In this document: positions 7,239-30,859 of the stretch, piece after piece | Layout of the letters: the number at the start of each line of letters is the position of its first letter | Numbering within the stretch: the first letter of the stretch is position 1 | NCBI RefSeq assembly: GCF_024345225.1 | Contig: NZ_BROD01000001.1 | Coordinates: forward strand, 930,001 to 994,000 | DNA: 64,000 nt | Direction: 5' to 3' | From: Clostridium sp. TW13 | GTDB taxonomy: Bacteria; Bacillota; Clostridia; Clostridiales; Clostridiaceae | Notes under the pieces: generated by a model | The model's input: only the letters and a program-made list of their open reading frames with translations | Database searches by the model: none | Told to the model about the DNA's origin: nothing | Program-made: the position numbers and the translations under genes

Positions 7239-8288
7239 CTAATTTAGCAAATCATGAGATATTTTACACATAAAGTCAAATTGTGATTCAGCTTTATCGT
7301 TTATTTTTCGCATTAAATTGCAAAATGATATTTTATTTACTTTATTGAGATTATTATAGTAATCTCTACTAAGACGCCAATATTTTTGAGGAAATAAAAT
7401 ATAAGCTAATACATAAGCTAAGTCATCTTGATTAAGTTTCTTTATTGAATTGTAAGCAGCTAGACAATTTTGAGTAAGATCCAGATTCCAATTAGTATTG
7501 TCCCGTCTTAATAATCTTCTAAAGAAATAACCTATATCGTGAGCTGAAAAATCTATACAACATTTGTCAAAATCTATGATGCAAGTTTCACCATTTGAAT
7601 CTATTAAAATATTCTTATTTACATAATCACCATGACATATTGAACGAGATAGATTGTCTACATTTATTGAAGCAGCTAGATTAAATGCTTTTTTTGCTAA
7701 TTGTAAGTTTATTTCAAAAGTAGATAGAAACATAGAGGAAAAGGTATCATTGGTAATGACAGCTTTATTATAACAATTCAATAGTTGTTCAAGATGTTTC
7801 CCAAGGGATATGTATAAATCATCATATCCGGTTTTAAAATTACTACCATGTATTGGAGTGAAATTTTCTGAACATTTGTGAAGCTTAGCTAGAGTTTTTG
7901 TAACATTTATCAAAGTATCCATGGAATCATAGTCACACTTTTCACCGTGAATCCATGGGGTTAATATAAAAAGCATTGAATTATAATTTACAAATCTACT
8001 TCCATTCTTTGAAGGTAAAAATCTTGCTACATGAATGCCATTTCTATATAGCCATTCCACTACTGAATAAATAAAAAGCAAGTCTTTTTCATTATAGTAT
8101 ACTTTTTTTAGGCAAAACAAAGTGTTATCTTGAGATTCAATTTTGTAAACAGCCCTTTGCTTATCAGTATTTTTTACTTTAATTTCTTCTATAGTTGAAT
8201 TAAAAACATTAAATTCAGGTAATATATTTTTAATTATTTCTTCCTGAGATAAATTGAATTTTTGTATATTTTGTTCTTTCATAGGCAT
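7239..8288 (-). CDS. CotS-family spore coat kinase-like protein
   Basis: This 349-residue protein has the aminoglycoside-phosphotransferase/CotS fold: an N-lobe with FCLKKVYYNEKDLLFI, a catalytic loop CHGDYVNKNILID (HGD-x4-N) and a metal-binding IIDFDKC. CotS/YsxE/YutH proteins associate with the spore coat, and some phosphorylate coat proteins. The start ATG is 6 bases after AAGGAGG. It is monocistronic, transcribed against its neighbours, and its 166-bp upstream gap is shared with dgt. The substrate is not evident from sequence. Confidence 0.78.
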   Translation of the reverse strand: MPMKEQNIQKFNLSQEEIIKNILPEFNVFNSTIEEIKVKNTDKQRAVYKIESQDNTLFCLKKVYYNEKDLLFIYSVVEWLYRNGIHVARFLPSKNGSRFVNYNSMLFILTPWIHGEKCDYDSMDTLINVTKTLAKLHKCSENFTPIHGSNFKTGYDDLYISLGKHLEQLLNCYNKAVITNDTFSSMFLSTFEINLQLAKKAFNLAASINVDNLSRSICHGDYVNKNILIDSNGETCIIDFDKCCIDFSAHDIGYFFRRLLRRDNTNWNLDLTQNCLAAYNSIKKLNQDDLAYVLAYILFPQKYWRLSRDYYNNLNKVNKISFCNLMRKINDKAESQFDFMCKISHDLLN

Positions 8289-8454
8289 AGAAGACCTCCT
8301 TATTAAGCAACTTATTAATATAAGATATTAATGAAATTTATTTATTATACTTAAAATAATAAATAAGTAATATATAAGTTGATACAAAGATATATATTTA
8401 AAGTTAGAGGATTTTTTCAATTAGAGTAGAATAATATATTTAAGGAGGGGTTGT

Positions 8455-9483
8455 ATGAATATAAGAGAGAAAAATCAAAGTTTAGAAGAGTTGACATTGA
8501 TTAAAGAGGCTAAATGTTCAAAGGACACCTTAGGTAGAGTGTTTAAGGAACAGGAAGATGATATAAGAACTGTCTTTATGGTGGATAGGGACAGAATTAT
8601 TCATTGCAAATCTTTTAGAAGGTTGAAACATAAGACTCAAGTATTTATAAAAACTTCTGGCGACCATTATAGAACGAGACTTACTCATACTATTGAAGTA
8701 TCACAAATTGCAAGAACTATAGCTGTAGGAATCAGAGTTAATGAATATCTAGCAGAAGCAATTGCCATGGGGCATGATTTAGGGCATGTAGCTTTTGCAC
8801 ATACAGGAGAAAGTGTATTAAATAGTATGCTTAAAGATGGATTCAGGCATAATGAGCAGAGTGTAAGAATAGTATCTAAATTGGAGAATGATGGAAAAGG
8901 TCTGAATTTAACAAGAGAAGTTATAGACGGAATACTCAATCATAGTGGATTTAGCAATGAATTTTCTGAAGCTAAGACTTTGGAAGGACAAATTGTTAGA
9001 TTTAGTGATAAGATTGCATACGTAAATCATGATATTGATGATTCTATTAGAGCTGGTTTACTATCAGAAGAAGAATTACCTAAAGATATAGTAGAGATTT
9101 TGGGGAAAAGTAATAGTGAAAGAATAGACACTTTAGTTCATGACTTAGTTAATAATACTATTAGAAATATAGAAAATAATGAGGTTAAAGTATCCTTAAG
9201 CAAAGAAAAAGGAGAAGCTTTAGCTGAACTTAGAAAATTTATGTTTAAAAATATTTATCTTGGGGATATCTTAGATATAGAAAGAAAAAAGGCTAGTTTT
9301 GTTATTGAAAATGTGGTAAAATATTATTTCGTCCATCCTGAGCAAATGCCACTAATTTATAGGAATATAGCTGAAGAAGAAGGAATAGAGCGAGGAGTTG
9401 CAGACTACATAGCAGGAATGAGCGATGATTATTGTCTTAGCACATTTAATAAAATTTATGTACCTAAAATTGTGGTATATTAG
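8455..9483 (+). CDS. dgt: dGTPase-like HD phosphohydrolase
   Basis: Dgt-type enzymes hydrolyse dNTPs to the deoxynucleoside plus triphosphate. The HD metal site is spread over [32 protein letters not shown] and a later NHDIDD. The 342-residue length matches the shorter Gram-positive class. The start follows AAGGAGGGG. Location directly before dnaG and rpoD is the usual clostridial order. Exact nucleotide specificity cannot be read from the sequence. Confidence 0.9.
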
Positions 9484-9663
9484 CAGGTAATAGATATATT
9501 TCTAAAAAATGTGTATAAATATTCTTATAGTAACTCAAAATATCTATGTAAACTTAAGTAATAAAAATGATGTGAAAAATTTTAAAATAAAAAAAGGAAA
9601 CTATCATTTTGTGTCGAATATATAGTGAGTTGCGAAAAAATATTAAAGGTGGAGGGTTTCTTA

Positions 9664-11445
9664 TTGCAAATTCCAGAAGAAATTATTGAAAGAATAAAAG
9701 AAGAAAATGATATAGTTGATATAGTTTCTGAGGTAGTTAAGCTAAAAAGAGCCGGAAGAAACTATTCAGGTCTTTGTCCTTTTCATCATGAGAAAACGCC
9801 ATCCTTTAGCGTATCTCCAGATAAGCAAATTTATAAGTGTTTTGGATGTGGAGAAGCAGGAAATACAATTTCGTTTGTTATGAAAACAAGAAATATAGGA
9901 TTTGTTGATGCAGCAATATACTTAGCTGAAAGAGCAAACATACCATTAAATCTTGATGAAGGGAAAAATAAAAAATTAATCCAGAAAAAAGATTTAATAA
10001 TTAAGGTCAACACGGATGCAGCTAGATTTTATTTTTCTAATCTTAGAAAGAATTCTGCAGCAAAAGAATATTTTATGAGAAGAGGAATAAATGAAAAAAC
10101 TATTAATAGATTTGGTTTAGGCTTTTCAATGAATAATTGGGGTACGTTATTAACGTATTTGAGAGGAAAAGGATACAAAGACCAAACTATTATAGAAGCA
10201 GGATTAGCTATAAAAAGTGAAAGAGGCACCGTTTTTGATAGATTTAGAAATAGAGTGATGTTTCCTGTTTTTGATTACAAAGGAAAAGTAATAGGTTTTG
10301 GAGGAAGAGTTTTAGATGATTCTAAACCTAAATACTTAAATTCACCGGAAACGCCTGTGTTTAATAAAGGCTTCAATCTTTATGGACTTAATTATGCTAT
10401 AAAAAATGGATTGCCAGAAAAGTATTTTATAATAGTAGAAGGATATATGGATTGTATATCTTTGCAACAATATGGCATTTCTAATACAGTAGCATCCCTT
10501 GGTACGGCTCTTACTATTAATCAAGCTAGATTATTAAAGCGTTATGCTGAAAAAGTTATAATATCTTATGATGCAGATTTAGCTGGACAGAAGGCCACAT
10601 TAAGAGGATTAGACATATTAAGAGATGTTGGGTTTGATGTTAGAGTACTTACAGTACCTCAAGGTAAAGATCCTGATGAGTTCATTAGAAGTAATGGTAA
10701 AGAAGCGTTTATGAAACTTATTGAGAATGCTATACCTTTAATTGAATATAGGCTTCTCAAAGCAAAGGAAGGTATTGACTTTAAAGACAATACTAAAGTA
10801 ATTGAGTATGGGGAAAGGGTTACTGAGATTTTAGCAAATTTGAATCCAGTGGAAAAAGATGTTTATATAAAAAAGATATCAGAGGAAACTGGATTAAGAG
10901 AACAATCAATATATGATATGTTATCTAAAAAAATGACAAATTCTTTAGGAAACTTAGAATTAGAGAATAATAATACAAAAAATGGAACAAAATTATATGT
11001 GGAGCCTGCTTATGTTAAGGCTGAAAGAAGTATATTAAAATTAATGCTTCAAAAAGAATATTATAGTAATATTATACAATATATCGAAGAAGGCGACTTT
11101 GCAATGAAGTCCCATGATGAGTTATATAGAATAATTAAGGAACTTGTAGATAATAAAGAAGAAAACTTGGAATCAAAGATAGAGTTTAAATGCCAAAGTC
11201 CTGAGATATTAAAAGAATGGATATCAATTAAAGAGTTAGTGTTGGTTGTCAATGAGAATGATGTTTTGCAGGAAATTAATGATTATATGTATGAAATAAA
11301 AAAGTTTAAGCTTCAAGAAGAAAGAAAGAAAATTATGAAGCAACTTAAACAGTGTGAAGAAAATAATTTATTTGAGGAATCATTAAATCTTGTTAAGGCT
11401 AAAAAAGAAATTGATATGAAGTTAAAAAACTTGAACAGAAGTTAA
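9664..11445 (+). CDS. dnaG: DNA primase DnaG
   Basis: DnaG synthesises RNA primers at the replication fork. The N-terminal CHC2 zinc finger (C-x2-H...C-x2-C, in [13 protein letters not shown] to [11 protein letters not shown]) is followed by the Toprim core with [11 protein letters not shown] and [11 protein letters not shown], then a helical DnaB-binding C-terminus (about 430-593). The start chosen is TTG 9664, giving [16 protein letters not shown], the normal DnaG N-terminus, preceded by AGGTGGAGGG. An in-frame start at 9625 would add 13 non-homologous residues. rpoD follows after 25 bp. Confidence 0.95.
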
Positions 11446-24054: not shown

Positions 24055-24089
24055 ATATAGCTAGTTTAACGACTAGCTATTATTTTTTT
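24055..24089 (+). terminator. Prophage-supplied terminator for rnpB
   Basis: ATAGCTAGT (24057-24065) pairs with ACTAGCTAT (24072-24080), followed by TATTTTTTT. It lies on the phage side of attL, so integration gives rnpB a new terminator. Its T-tract overlaps the stop codon and last lysine codons of the convergent integrase gene. Confidence 0.85.
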
Positions 24090-25246
24090 GCCACCAATTT
24101 GCCACCAAAAATATTATTTAATTTTTCTGTAGCATTTTTTTGCATCTCTTTATTAACATGAGCGTAAATATTTAAAGTTGTATTAATATCCTCATGCCCT
24201 AGTCTTGTTTGCACTGTTTTAAAATCCACACCTTGTTGAATTAATAAAGTCGCATTAGTATGTCTTAAGTCATGAAAACGAATAGTTTTATCTATTCCAG
24301 CAGCAGCTACAACCTTTTTTATTTTATTAGTGTAGTACATAGGGTGAATGTATTTTCCATTATCCCACCTCATGACTAGATCATAACTTTTATCATTAAA
24401 AATATTATTTTCATAGAACTCTCCGTATTCATTTTTTTTGAATTCTTGCCTTTTATTTAATTGAGTTAACATCTCTAAAAGTTCATTTGAAACATAAATA
24501 GTTCTGGTACTTCCTTTTGTTTTTGTAGTTTCCATGTAAGTGTGTCCGTAGTTATAAATTAAATTATTGTGAATGGATACCACATTTTCTCCGTAGCTTA
24601 TATCTTCCCAAGTCAACCCAGCTAATTCTCCACGCCTAAGACCTAGTTCTAAGGTTAATCTAAAAGCTACATAAAACATATAATCATATTCATTTTCTAA
24701 ATCTAAAGTTTTAATTAATAATGGTATTTCTTCAACTTCTAATACATCGGTTTGTTTTTTATTTCTCTGTGGTCGCTCAACGCCTTTGCAGGGATTGTTT
24801 TGTATCAGATGCAGTTTTATACTTCTTTCAAATATGGAATTACAAAGCGTATATATTCCTTGCAAAGTAGTATCGCTAATATTATTCTTTTTTATATCTA
24901 GTAACATTCGTTCTATATCTAAAGCGGTTATTTTATTTATTTCTTTAAAACCTAAATAGGGAATCAAATATTTTTTATTCATTTCTTTATATCTACTATA
25001 TGTCGTTATTTTTCTAAGAGGTTTTATATATTCCTCTAACCATTGTGTAGATACACTTGTAAAGTTAACTTTAGTAGGCTCAATATATCCTTTTTCAAAT
25101 TCGCTTATTGCATCACGGAGAGCCTTTTCGGCTTCTTTTTTTGTTTTAAAACCTCCTTTTTCTTTCTTTTTACGTTTCCCGTCGATTAATCCTAGGTTAA
25201 AATAGTAACTCCATGTGTCACCACGTTTCCTTACAGCACCTTTCAT
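24080..25246 (-). CDS. int: Tyrosine-family site-specific integrase
   Basis: This 388-residue recombinase integrates the phage into rnpB. It has an N-terminal arm-binding domain (KRGDTWSYYFNLGLIDGKRK, 6-50), a SAM-like core-binding domain (about 65-155) and a C-terminal catalytic domain. The catalytic residues are Arg in LELGLRRGELAGL, H-x-x-R in FHDLRHTNATLL, His in RLGHEDINTTL and Tyr in NIYAHV. ATG 25246 lies directly after GGAGGAAAA; ten upstream in-frame residues (to 25276) overlap the ribosome site. A terminator-like hairpin separates it from the small gene upstream. Confidence 0.95.
   Translation of the reverse strand: MKGAVRKRGDTWSYYFNLGLIDGKRKKKEKGGFKTKKEAEKALRDAISEFEKGYIEPTKVNFTSVSTQWLEEYIKPLRKITTYSRYKEMNKKYLIPYLGFKEINKITALDIERMLLDIKKNNISDTTLQGIYTLCNSIFERSIKLHLIQNNPCKGVERPQRNKKQTDVLEVEEIPLLIKTLDLENEYDYMFYVAFRLTLELGLRRGELAGLTWEDISYGENVVSIHNNLIYNYGHTYMETTKTKGSTRTIYVSNELLEMLTQLNKRQEFKKNEYGEFYENNIFNDKSYDLVMRWDNGKYIHPMYYTNKIKKVVAAAGIDKTIRFHDLRHTNATLLIQQGVDFKTVQTRLGHEDINTTLNIYAHVNKEMQKNATEKLNNIFGGKLVAKK
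24088..24108. repeat. Left pair of integrase arm-type sites
   Basis: TTGCCACCAA occurs at 24088-24097 and 24099-24108, 11 bp apart, inside the 3' end of the integrase gene and about 40 bp from the attL core. The same paired arrangement recurs near attR (63715-63735). This is the pattern of arm-binding sites for a tyrosine integrase N-terminal domain. Confidence 0.75.
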
Positions 25247-25266
25247 TTTTCCTCCTTCTTGGAAAT

Positions 25267-25293
25267 AAAAAGCCACTATTTAGTGGCTTTTTC
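25267..25293. terminator. Terminator-like hairpin between the RHH-like gene and int
   Basis: AAAAAGCCACTA and TAGTGGCTTTTT pair around two bases, overlapping the stop codon of the small minus-strand gene. Read in the integrase direction it has a T-run after it, so int would be expressed only by read-through, antitermination or another promoter. Confidence 0.7.
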
Positions 25294-25437
25294 TAACTCG
25301 GATAAGTAATTTTCAAAAATCATATTGCAAAAATTACTTAAAGTTCTTCCATCCTTTTCCGCTAACTCTATTAATTTGTCCTTTGTTGCTTTTTTTGAAA
25401 CAACCATGATTTTGTCTTTGTTCTCCGCAATAGCCAT
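25276..25437 (-). CDS. Small ribbon-helix-helix-like DNA-binding protein
   Basis: This 53-residue protein begins MAIAENKDKIMVVSKKATKD and continues with two predicted helices, the layout of Arc/CopG ribbon-helix-helix proteins: a basic strand and then a helix in GRTLSNFCNMIFENYL. It sits directly upstream of int on the same strand, so it could be a recombination directionality factor or an integrase regulator. Its promoter (25466-25494) contains two copies of a repeat shared with the divergent regulator promoter. The assignment is structural inference. Confidence 0.6.
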   Translation of the reverse strand: MAIAENKDKIMVVSKKATKDKLIELAEKDGRTLSNFCNMIFENYLSELEKATK

Positions 25438-25465
25438 TATATCACCTCAATATCATTGCAATTTC

Positions 25466-25494
25466 AGTATACACTTATATACACTTATAAGCAA
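25466..25494 (-). promoter_or_regulatory. Promoter of the RHH-like/int transcript
   Basis: On the minus strand TTGCTT (25494-25489), a 17-bp spacer and TATACT (25471-25466) form a near-consensus sigma-A promoter about 30 bp upstream of the ATG at 25437. Two tandem 10-bp repeats TATACACTTA (25468-25477 and 25478-25487, plus strand) lie within the spacer and -10, ideally placed for repression. Confidence 0.75.
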
Positions 25495-25537
25495 GTTGTT
25501 TACGAAAATAAAATTGCAAAAAGTTTTTGCCACAGTG

Positions 25538-25567
25538 TTGACGAGTGTATAACCTATATGGTAATAT
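25538..25567 (+). promoter_or_regulatory. Promoter of the HTH-TPR regulator with operator-like motif
   Basis: TTGACG (25538-25543) and TAATAT (25562-25567) with an 18-bp spacer form a probable promoter about 55 bp before the regulator start. The spacer begins with AGTGTATA (25544-25551), the reverse complement of the TATACACT core repeated in the divergent int promoter. A shared regulator for both promoters is inferred. Confidence 0.65.
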
Positions 25568-25624
25568 ATTGATATGGAATAAGTAAACTGAATAAATAAA
25601 AAATACTGTGGTTGGGGGAGAGCT

Positions 25625-26836: not shown

Positions 26837-26959
26837 TTGAAGAAGAAAATATCAATACTTTTAGCTGGATTAATGCTAGCGTGTACATTTACAGTTGTGA
26901 ATCCTGCAACTAGAATAGTTTGTTTTAGTAATGATCCAGGTACAACAGAACCGTTATAG
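26837..26959 (+). CDS. Secreted pro-peptide, putative quorum/arbitrium signal
   Basis: This 40-residue ORF starts at TTG 26837, 8 bases after AAGGGTGG (GTG 26828 is an in-frame alternative). Residues 2-4 are lysines and 5-21 are hydrophobic (ISILLAGLMLACTFTVV), a typical Sec signal. The polar C-terminus ends FSNDPGTTEPL. In RRNPP systems such precursors are exported and trimmed to a 5-10-residue C-terminal peptide that re-enters via Opp and binds the TPR regulator encoded just upstream. LMLAC might alternatively act as a weak lipobox, as for enterococcal pheromone precursors. Its position and shape are strong; function is inferred. Confidence 0.7.
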   Translation: MKKKISILLAGLMLACTFTVVNPATRIVCFSNDPGTTEPL

Positions 26960-26985
26960 TATTAGAAATGTGACGTATTCGACAA

Positions 26986-27063: not shown

Positions 27064-27174
27064 ATGTTAAGGCAGAGGTTATTAAAATTTAAAAAAATTA
27101 AACAATTAAAAGAAGAAGATATTCAAACCATAATTAATTATGTTGCAGAAAAGAAAAAAGCTAGTAAAAGCTAG
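27064..27174 (+). CDS. Small basic helical protein, unknown
   Basis: This 36-residue ORF starts MLRQRLLKFKKIKQLKEEDI after GGGGGTG, with helical and strongly basic character. It ends in a bidirectional terminator shared with the convergent repressor gene, which supports a real transcript end here. It is not recognised. Confidence 0.45.
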   Translation: MLRQRLLKFKKIKQLKEEDIQTIINYVAEKKKASKS

Positions 27175-27533: not shown

Positions 27534-27570
27534 ATTAATACCTCAAAACATATACTTTTTTATCGATTAT

Positions 27571-27711
27571 ATCACATTGTGTGACAAAATTAAAGAGAAA
27601 CTTAATAATTCAAAGCAAATGATATAAACCAAGTAATCGAACAAGCCTATTTTTGTCAACGATGTGATAAAAGTGATACTAAGGTTTTGAAAATATCACT
27701 GTGGGTGATAT
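27571..27711. promoter_or_regulatory. Lysogeny-switch operator region
   Basis: Between the divergent repressor and Cro-like genes three related sites are visible: TTTTGTCACACAATGTGATA (minus strand, near 27571-27590), TTTTGTCAACGATGTGATAA (plus strand, near 27651-27670), and the palindrome ATATCAC-TGTGG-GTGATAT (27693-27711). GTGAT also repeats at 27664 and 27673. The shared ATGTGATA half-site suggests cooperative repressor binding over both promoters. Confidence 0.65.
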
Positions 27712-29809: not shown

Positions 29810-30859
29810 ATGATAAAAGGATTTAAAGTATTTGAAAATGATTGGACATGTAGGGAATATCAATACGAGGTAGGTAAGACTTTTAAACATGAAGGAAATA
29901 TCGAAATGTGTGGAGCAGGATTTCACTTTTGCCAAAAGGCTAGTGATTGTTTTAATTACTACAGTTTTAACAGCAACAACAAAGTCGCAGAAGTTGAAGC
30001 AGTAGGACATGTAGAAACTAGAGAGGATAAATCTGTTACAGATGAATTGAGAATAGTTAGAGAAATAAGCTGGCAAGAGTTATTAACTATAGTTAACACT
30101 GGCAAAGATTGCACAGGCTTAAATAATAGTGGTAACAGGAATAGTGGTGACTGGAATAGTGGTAACAGGAATAGTGGTGACAGGAATAGTGGTAACAGGA
30201 ATAGTGGTAACGGGAATAGTGGTAACGGGAATAGTGGTGACTGGAATAGTGGTAACAGGAATAGTGGTGACAGGAATAGTGGTAACAGGAATAGTGGTAA
30301 CGGGAATAGTGGTAACGGGAATAGTGGTAACAGGAATAGTGGTGACAGGAATAGTGGTGACTGGAATAGTGGTGACTGGAATAGTGGTGACAGGAATAGT
30401 GGTGACTGGAATAGTGGTAACAGGAATAGTGGTAACGGGAATAGTGGTAACGGGAATAGTGGTAACAGGAATAGTGGTGACAGGAATAGTGGTGACTGGA
30501 ATAGCACTAACCGATCTAGCAATGTTTTTTCTACCAAACAAGAAAAACTTAAGATATTTGATAAAGAAACAGATATGACATTCGACGCATGGAGAAACAG
30601 CGAAGCTTGCAGTATATTAGCTTGGAATTTTAACTCTACAGTTTGGATATATGAAGAAAATATGACAGACGAAGAAAAAGAGAAACATCCTTCTTATAAA
30701 ACTACAGGCGGTTATCTTAAAGAGTTTACATTTAGAGAAGCATGCAAAAATATGTGGGGCTGCCTAACCACAAGAGAAAAAGAAGTTATTGAAAATATAC
30801 CTAACTTTGATAATGATAAATTCAAATCAATAACAGGTATAGAGGTAGAAAAAGAATGA
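29810..30859 (+). CDS. DUF7666-like protein with a pentapeptide (NSGNx) minisatellite domain
   Basis: This 349-residue protein has an N-terminal domain common in phage proteins (KGFKVFENDWTCREYQYEVG, with CGAGFHFC; residues 1-100). Residues 106-230 are 25 perfect-register pentapeptides NSG[N/D][R/G/W], like PF01469-type beta-solenoids of PPE-MPTR proteins. A conserved C-terminal part with WIYEENMTDEEKEKHPSYKT follows. The start follows AGGAGG. Its stop overlaps the sigma factor start (ATGA). Function is unknown; the solenoid may be a length-variable spacer or binding surface. Confidence 0.8.
   Translation: MIKGFKVFENDWTCREYQYEVGKTFKHEGNIEMCGAGFHFCQKASDCFNYYSFNSNNKVAEVEAVGHVETREDKSVTDELRIVREISWQELLTIVNTGKDCTGLNNSGNRNSGDWNSGNRNSGDRNSGNRNSGNGNSGNGNSGDWNSGNRNSGDRNSGNRNSGNGNSGNGNSGNRNSGDRNSGDWNSGDWNSGDRNSGDWNSGNRNSGNGNSGNGNSGNRNSGDRNSGDWNSTNRSSNVFSTKQEKLKIFDKETDMTFDAWRNSEACSILAWNFNSTVWIYEENMTDEEKEKHPSYKTTGGYLKEFTFREACKNMWGCLTTREKEVIENIPNFDNDKFKSITGIEVEKE
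30125..30514 (+). repeat. 15-bp coding minisatellite (25 units plus one degenerate)
   Basis: The unit AATAGTGGTAACAGG (variants GAC for AAC and GGG or TGG for AGG) is repeated 25 times without indels from 30125 to 30499, followed by a degenerate copy. Units 2-7 and 8-13 are an exact higher-order duplication (DW-NR-DR-NR-NG-NG) of 90 bp. Every reading frame on both strands stays open, producing artefactual ORFs. Confidence 0.97.

Follow-up and report, generated by a model that had tools for sequence, protein, structure and literature searches.

Short repeats lie over two divergent promoters between an integrase unit and a putative peptide-receptor operon in a prophage of Clostridium sp. TW13. 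The question raised by this locus is whether one protein could read these repeats at both promoters and, if so, which protein it is. In the window (the whole 64,000-nucleotide stretch of DNA that was analysed), two divergent units, rhh and int reading leftward and the HTH-TPR gene and a propeptide-like ORF reading rightward, flank a space of 187 bp (25438-25624). The reading that we prefer, at a probability of roughly 0.7, predicts from the sequence that the AGTGT repeats in this space serve as operators for the small RHH protein, which would repress its own rhh(-int) transcript as well as the HTH-TPR/propeptide operon. The features of the locus are listed in Table 1.

Table 1. Coordinates of the features at the divergent locus, with the strand and the basis of each assignment.
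Feature	Position	Strand	Basis or remark
Tyrosine integrase, first listed start; an internal ATG may be the true start	24080..25276	-	domain matches
Terminator-like hairpin at the rhh-int junction	25267..25292	-	perfect 12-bp inverted repeat, A- and U-tracts
53-aa RHH protein, proposed box binder	25276..25437	-	weak RHH_5 and Arc-like matches
Putative rhh/int promoter, TTGCTT (25494-25489) -17- TATACT (25471-25466)	25466..25494	-	read from the sequence
Candidate RHH operator pair AGTGT-N5-AGTGT, spans both TATACACT copies	25471..25485	-	in rhh/int promoter spacer and -10
Perfect dyad GCAAAAAGTTTTTGC	25516..25530	.	between the two promoters; such a dyad in 5% of shuffles
Opposite candidate operator pair AGTGT-N5-AGTGT	25534..25548	+	box 1 overlaps and box 2 adjoins the HTH-TPR promoter -35
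Putative HTH-TPR promoter, TTGACG (25538-25543) -18- TAATAT (25562-25567), TG before the -10	25538..25567	+	listed by the scanner
HTH-TPR regulator, RRNPP-like, 396 aa	25625..26815	+	domain matches, model, fold searches
Propeptide-like ORF, 40 aa, TTG start chosen by eye, end NDPGTTEPL	26837..26959	+	sequence

AGTGT boxes in the divergent space

The initial annotation had described TATACACT twice in tandem and once inverted, and the sequence confirmed these three copies, at 25468-25475 and 25478-25485 on the forward strand and, as AGTGTATA, at 25544-25551. As an 8-mer the triple was weakly beyond chance: the 64-kb window held six copies of TATACACT where 3.6 were expected, some 8-mer was present three times in 67 of 2000 shuffles of the 187-bp space, and the two-sided arrangement, defined post hoc, was reached by 3 of 2000. 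The 5-bp box AGTGT is the better repeat unit. Four copies were found in this space, where 0.50 would be expected (at least four in 2 of 5000 shuffles), and they formed two pairs with 10-bp spacing in opposite orientation, an arrangement that none of 5000 shuffles reproduced. A search-wide null, in which any 5-mer forming a two-sided pair at a spacing of 8-13 was counted, was reached by 151 of 5000 shuffles (∼3%); the sequence statistics alone are therefore moderate, and the case rests on the relatives of the RHH protein. The exact motif AGTGT-N5-AGTGT occurred twice in the window (0.05 expected) and four times on both strands of the 4.64-Mb genome, half of these in this space. No further pair was found at other phage promoters, and allowing one mismatch added two matches in the window, which is within chance.

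At the rhh/int promoter proposed earlier, TTGCTT-N17-TATACT, the boxes are present in the spacer and the -10 as claimed, but the -35 is weak, matching the consensus at 3 of 6 positions, and the promoter was absent from the promoter scan listing. At the regulator promoter, which the scanner does list, AGTGTATA was seen directly after the TTGACG -35 as described. The second box of the opposite pair is part of this copy at 25544 and had been located, whereas the AGTGT box at 25534-25538 had been overlooked.

No site for the HTH-TPR protein stood out in the 187-bp space. The dyad between the two promoters was rejected as a palindromic site of this protein at its 5% chance level; it is not significant and is possibly a site of another regulator. 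A palindrome at 25548-25566 was also rejected as an HTH-TPR site, its class being reached by 81% of shuffles. TATCAC/GTGATA palindromes at 27570-27586 and 27694-27710 flank the cI/cro-like divergent promoters and are likely cI-type operators; they were set aside as other DNA than the AGTGT boxes.

The RHH protein and its relatives

On its own, the window RHH protein scored 18.7 bits, below the Pfam cut-off of 26. In its alignment all nine members matched RHH_5 at an E of 0.1 or better, and the alignment profile matched solved RHH proteins, namely ORF56 (2e-4), AvtR (1e-3), CopG (8e-3) and also Mnt. By sequence the protein has an RHH fold, and short boxes recur over the promoter of its own gene.

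In a search of 206 genomes from the same family, relatives with an E no higher than 1e-4 came from the genome itself and from two others, G065 (46%) and G108 (40%); neither of these two is one of the eight genomes of the 206 that had an HTH-TPR match at E 1e-8. In both loci from this first search (L027 and L028), boxes lie upstream of the RHH gene, and a palindromic box copy directly follows the -35 of a divergent gene that is unrelated: TTGACAGGTGATTCACTT and TTGACAAGTGATATCACCT, compared with TTGACGAGTGTATAACCT in the window. The relaxed pattern RGTGW was picked after these upstream regions had been seen. Profile searches returned matches in 23 of 200 and then 12 of 391 genomes, the own genome included, and gave 39 loci; three more matches of the former search had no locus and are outside the count. 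L040 was dropped for an internal stop and an uncertain start, L045, L047, L049 and L066 because they were poor or out of frame, and L033, L043, L053, L054, L057 and L060 as near-duplicates, L048 and L050 both being retained despite their likeness. Eight of the 28 loci kept, the window among them, had RGTGW-N5-RGTGW or RGTGW-N0-3-WCACY upstream, and the remaining 79,640 bp, used as the control, held five box-pair matches; the 20 loci with no upstream box pair belong to the more distant relatives. Strict AGTGT was counted at the 27 homologous loci, with the window excluded, and occurred 18 times against 9.4 expected, which placed it 16th of 481 5-mers (AGTGA ranked fourth).

Because RGTGW had been picked post hoc, a held-out test with criteria fixed beforehand was carried out on new genomes. 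A phylum-wide draw gave an RHH match in 7 of 368 genomes, one of them the own genome. The two strongest of the six new relatives, L067 and L069, each had three direct pairs, and the other four, which were weak matches, had no box pair; 17,748 bp of control sequence contained no direct pair and one palindrome. In L067, as judged by eye, the promoter TTGTCA-TATAAT of the RHH gene has two boxes within its 17-bp spacer, near the arrangement of the window, and three boxes lie behind the -35 of a divergent TTGACA-17-TATAAT promoter. L067 and L069 come from one genus and their upstream regions have a mean column identity of 92%, so that the two amount to roughly a single event.

The four closest RHH relatives found are about 38-43% identical to the window protein and carry equivalent RGTGW boxes upstream. 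No HTH-TPR gene was seen beside any of them, and inspection by eye of the 16 kb surrounding L067 showed none among ORFs of at least 90 aa. What is observed at the window locus is the boxes, their arrangement, their rarity and their recurrence at the closest RHH relatives in other gene company. A search of viral contigs found no RHH relatives, the window protein matched phage records at chance level only, and the L027 protein had no match in phage records or in plasmids.

The putative receptor, its propeptide-like neighbour and the sister modules

The HTH_3 match of the HTH-TPR protein scored 24.5 bits and so passed the cut-off of 23, and the TPR models stayed below their own cut-offs. In the predicted model, whose mean pLDDT is 78.6 with low values over residues 1-100, an HTH-like part is accompanied by a TPR-like solenoid. 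A fold search returned NprR (Z 18.6), RapI (18.2) and PlcR (15.4), with unrelated TPR proteins tying (LGN, 19.5); the search with the predicted model is unspecific, quorum sensors not standing apart from other TPR proteins. An adjacent small ORF whose product has a hydrophobic stretch at the N-terminus and ends in a short peptide was seen by eye in all three prophage-like modules (the window, L012 and L014) and in L013. Together the HTH-TPR gene and the propeptide-like ORF resemble a pair of the RRNPP type, set in a prophage module that is conserved, with the HTH-TPR protein as the putative receptor.

One clear relative of the HTH-TPR protein (35%) was found, in a prophage of Clostridium manihotivorum CT4 (L012) whose module has the same order: int, a 70-aa gene, HTH-TPR, propeptide, a small ORF, cI, cro and a small HTH gene. 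Besides this prophage, the viral contigs held no relatives of the HTH-TPR protein or the integrase, and no HTH-TPR relatives were found in plasmids. In L014 the HTH-TPR gene, a propeptide-like ORF, cI and cro follow in the same order and a 589-aa ORF (8004-9773) replaces the integrase; judged by eye this ORF is probably a serine recombinase, so that the recombinase type would have been exchanged beside the kept signalling module. The slot of the RHH gene holds the 70-aa protein in C. manihotivorum and a small HTH-like ORF in L014. The propeptides end alike in the window (26837-26959, NDPGTTEPL) and in L012 (9521-9640, GEPGITDPI) even with no more than 35% identity between the receptors, and the similar ends may be a lead to the mature peptide.

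No copy of AGTGT was present between the divergent genes of either L012 or L014; since only about half a copy was expected by chance, this absence is mild evidence against the HTH-TPR protein as the binder. No word common to both promoters was found in L012 and L014 as a module-wide rule, so that the shared operator is seen in this one prophage only. TATAGTACAA, which occurs twice in L012, was rejected as a shared operator, a repeated 10-mer arising in 593 of 1000 shuffles.

Candidate binders and the proposed switch

The initial annotation had named either the peptide sensor or the RHH-like protein as the possible binder. If the HTH-TPR receptor bound the boxes, both promoters would follow the peptide signal. 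One of the divergent units encodes it, it has an HTH domain and a propeptide-like neighbour, and RRNPP regulators often act on nearby promoters. This binder is nevertheless unlikely, as RHH relatives keep the boxes where no HTH-TPR gene is seen adjacent, and the sister modules L012 and L014 have the HTH-TPR gene with no AGTGT in the divergent space; the boxes at such RHH relatives favour the RHH protein instead. That the repeats arose by chance or slippage in AT-rich promoter DNA and are read by no regulator is improbable in our judgement. Slippage can create a 10-bp tandem duplication, and shuffling alone produced 8-mer triples (67/2000) and generic two-sided 5-mer pairs (151/5000), but the opposite pair at 25534 lies outside the tandem and held-out RHH relatives have the same box arrangement. 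The integrase might also bind the boxes and repress its own promoter: it has an Arm-DNA-bind_4 domain, and such repression is known for integrases, according to the accessible part of PMC8612738. We regard this as very improbable, the boxes recurring at RHH relatives that by eye have no integrase directly adjacent among the listed neighbour ORFs.

With the RHH protein as the preferred binder, we infer its binding, repression by binding and the timing of the switch. RHH dimers would occupy the AGTGT boxes and, because these lie one helical turn apart, two dimers would sit on one face of the DNA. On the 25471-25485 pair, at the spacer and -10, they would block polymerase and cause autorepression of rhh(-int); on the 25534-25548 pair, at the -35, they would block polymerase and repress the HTH-TPR/propeptide operon. 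Once the RHH protein has accumulated, both divergent units would be silent and low in the lysogen, and when it is scarce, e.g. just after infection, both would open together. The earlier proposal of one protein for both promoters gains from the boxes at the own and divergent promoters of the closest RHH relatives, but the shared logic is not seen in the two sister modules. A direct tie to integration had also been claimed. The rhh and int genes do form one leftward unit, but the claim is weakened by the hairpin between them, which looks like an intrinsic terminator (-17.9 kcal/mol with its surroundings, z -2.6; absent from a simple terminator scan). Because this hairpin follows rhh, the promoter at 25466-25494 may drive mainly rhh, and the integrase is probably only a partial target. 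The window contains no tRNA genes.

If the RHH reading is true, a clostridial phage peptide receptor would be placed under a dedicated repressor common to the integration unit, and the peptide sensor need not be the reader of the shared operator. The reading reduces to a cheap and concrete set of one 53-aa protein, four AGTGT boxes and two promoters. Rather doubtful, and put forward tentatively, is a wider idea, in which clostridial temperate phages would have their own peptide-signalling module: a small exchangeable DNA-binding protein between an exchangeable recombinase (tyrosine or serine) and the receptor would set both, so that one repressor switches communication and integration. The literature searched, which included few subscription papers, gave no description of a wiring of RHH repressor, peptide receptor and integration.

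The RHH repressors of mobile elements (CopG, Mnt/Arc and Omega/ParB of pSM19035) are alike, as far as the accessible sources go, in combining a small RHH protein with short repeats that cover its own promoter and a further one; the WATCACW repeats of Omega overlap several promoters, its own and others (PMC9499535, accessible part). Here, by contrast, the box is AGTGT with 10-bp spacing in only two pairs, and the putative targets are the int unit of a phage and the operon of a peptide receptor. The accessible text of PMC10075063 mentions a c1-associated layout for RRNPP pairs of (pro)phages, which are similar in that an HTH-TPR gene is followed by a secreted-peptide-like ORF and adjoins a cI-like gene; the window pair, known from sequence alone, differs in lying beside int and in being apparently RHH-controlled. 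The same text names the clostridial QssR/Qsr systems, with an HTH-TPR receptor and a propeptide, to which the window pair and a similar chromosomal pair in L013 are alike; the window pair differs in its prophage setting, where int, cI, cro and a small HTH gene accompany it. The arbitrium system (AimR-AimP) is alike in outline, as a phage-borne TPR regulator and peptide at the lysogeny region; the HTH-TPR protein had no match in phage records by tblastn, and no AimR was among the PDB matches listed, by sequence or by fold.

Several minor observations were made in and around the modules. TTCGACAA follows the propeptide in all three modules (∼26977-26985 in the window) and is the sole 8-mer that they have in common there, any shared 8-mer being found in 5 of 1000 shuffled sets; it resembles a Spo0A box, and in L014 it lies inside a hairpin loop. 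The small ORFs behind the propeptide (27064-27174 in the window, 9737-9856 in L012) have C-terminal halves that look alike by eye (EDIQTIINYV and EDNIKTIIDHI). The leader of the HTH-TPR gene in L014 (∼7575-7616, minus strand) has a long inverted repeat around AACTCCGTAGGT, perhaps an RNA element. In L013 the propeptide-like ORF of the HTH-TPR gene (LCGGPGGVSP...) lies at 7696-7824, with phage genes not evident nearby. Farther along the window, the ORF at 29810-30859 has a long run of NSG(N/D)(R/W/G) pentapeptide-like repeats.
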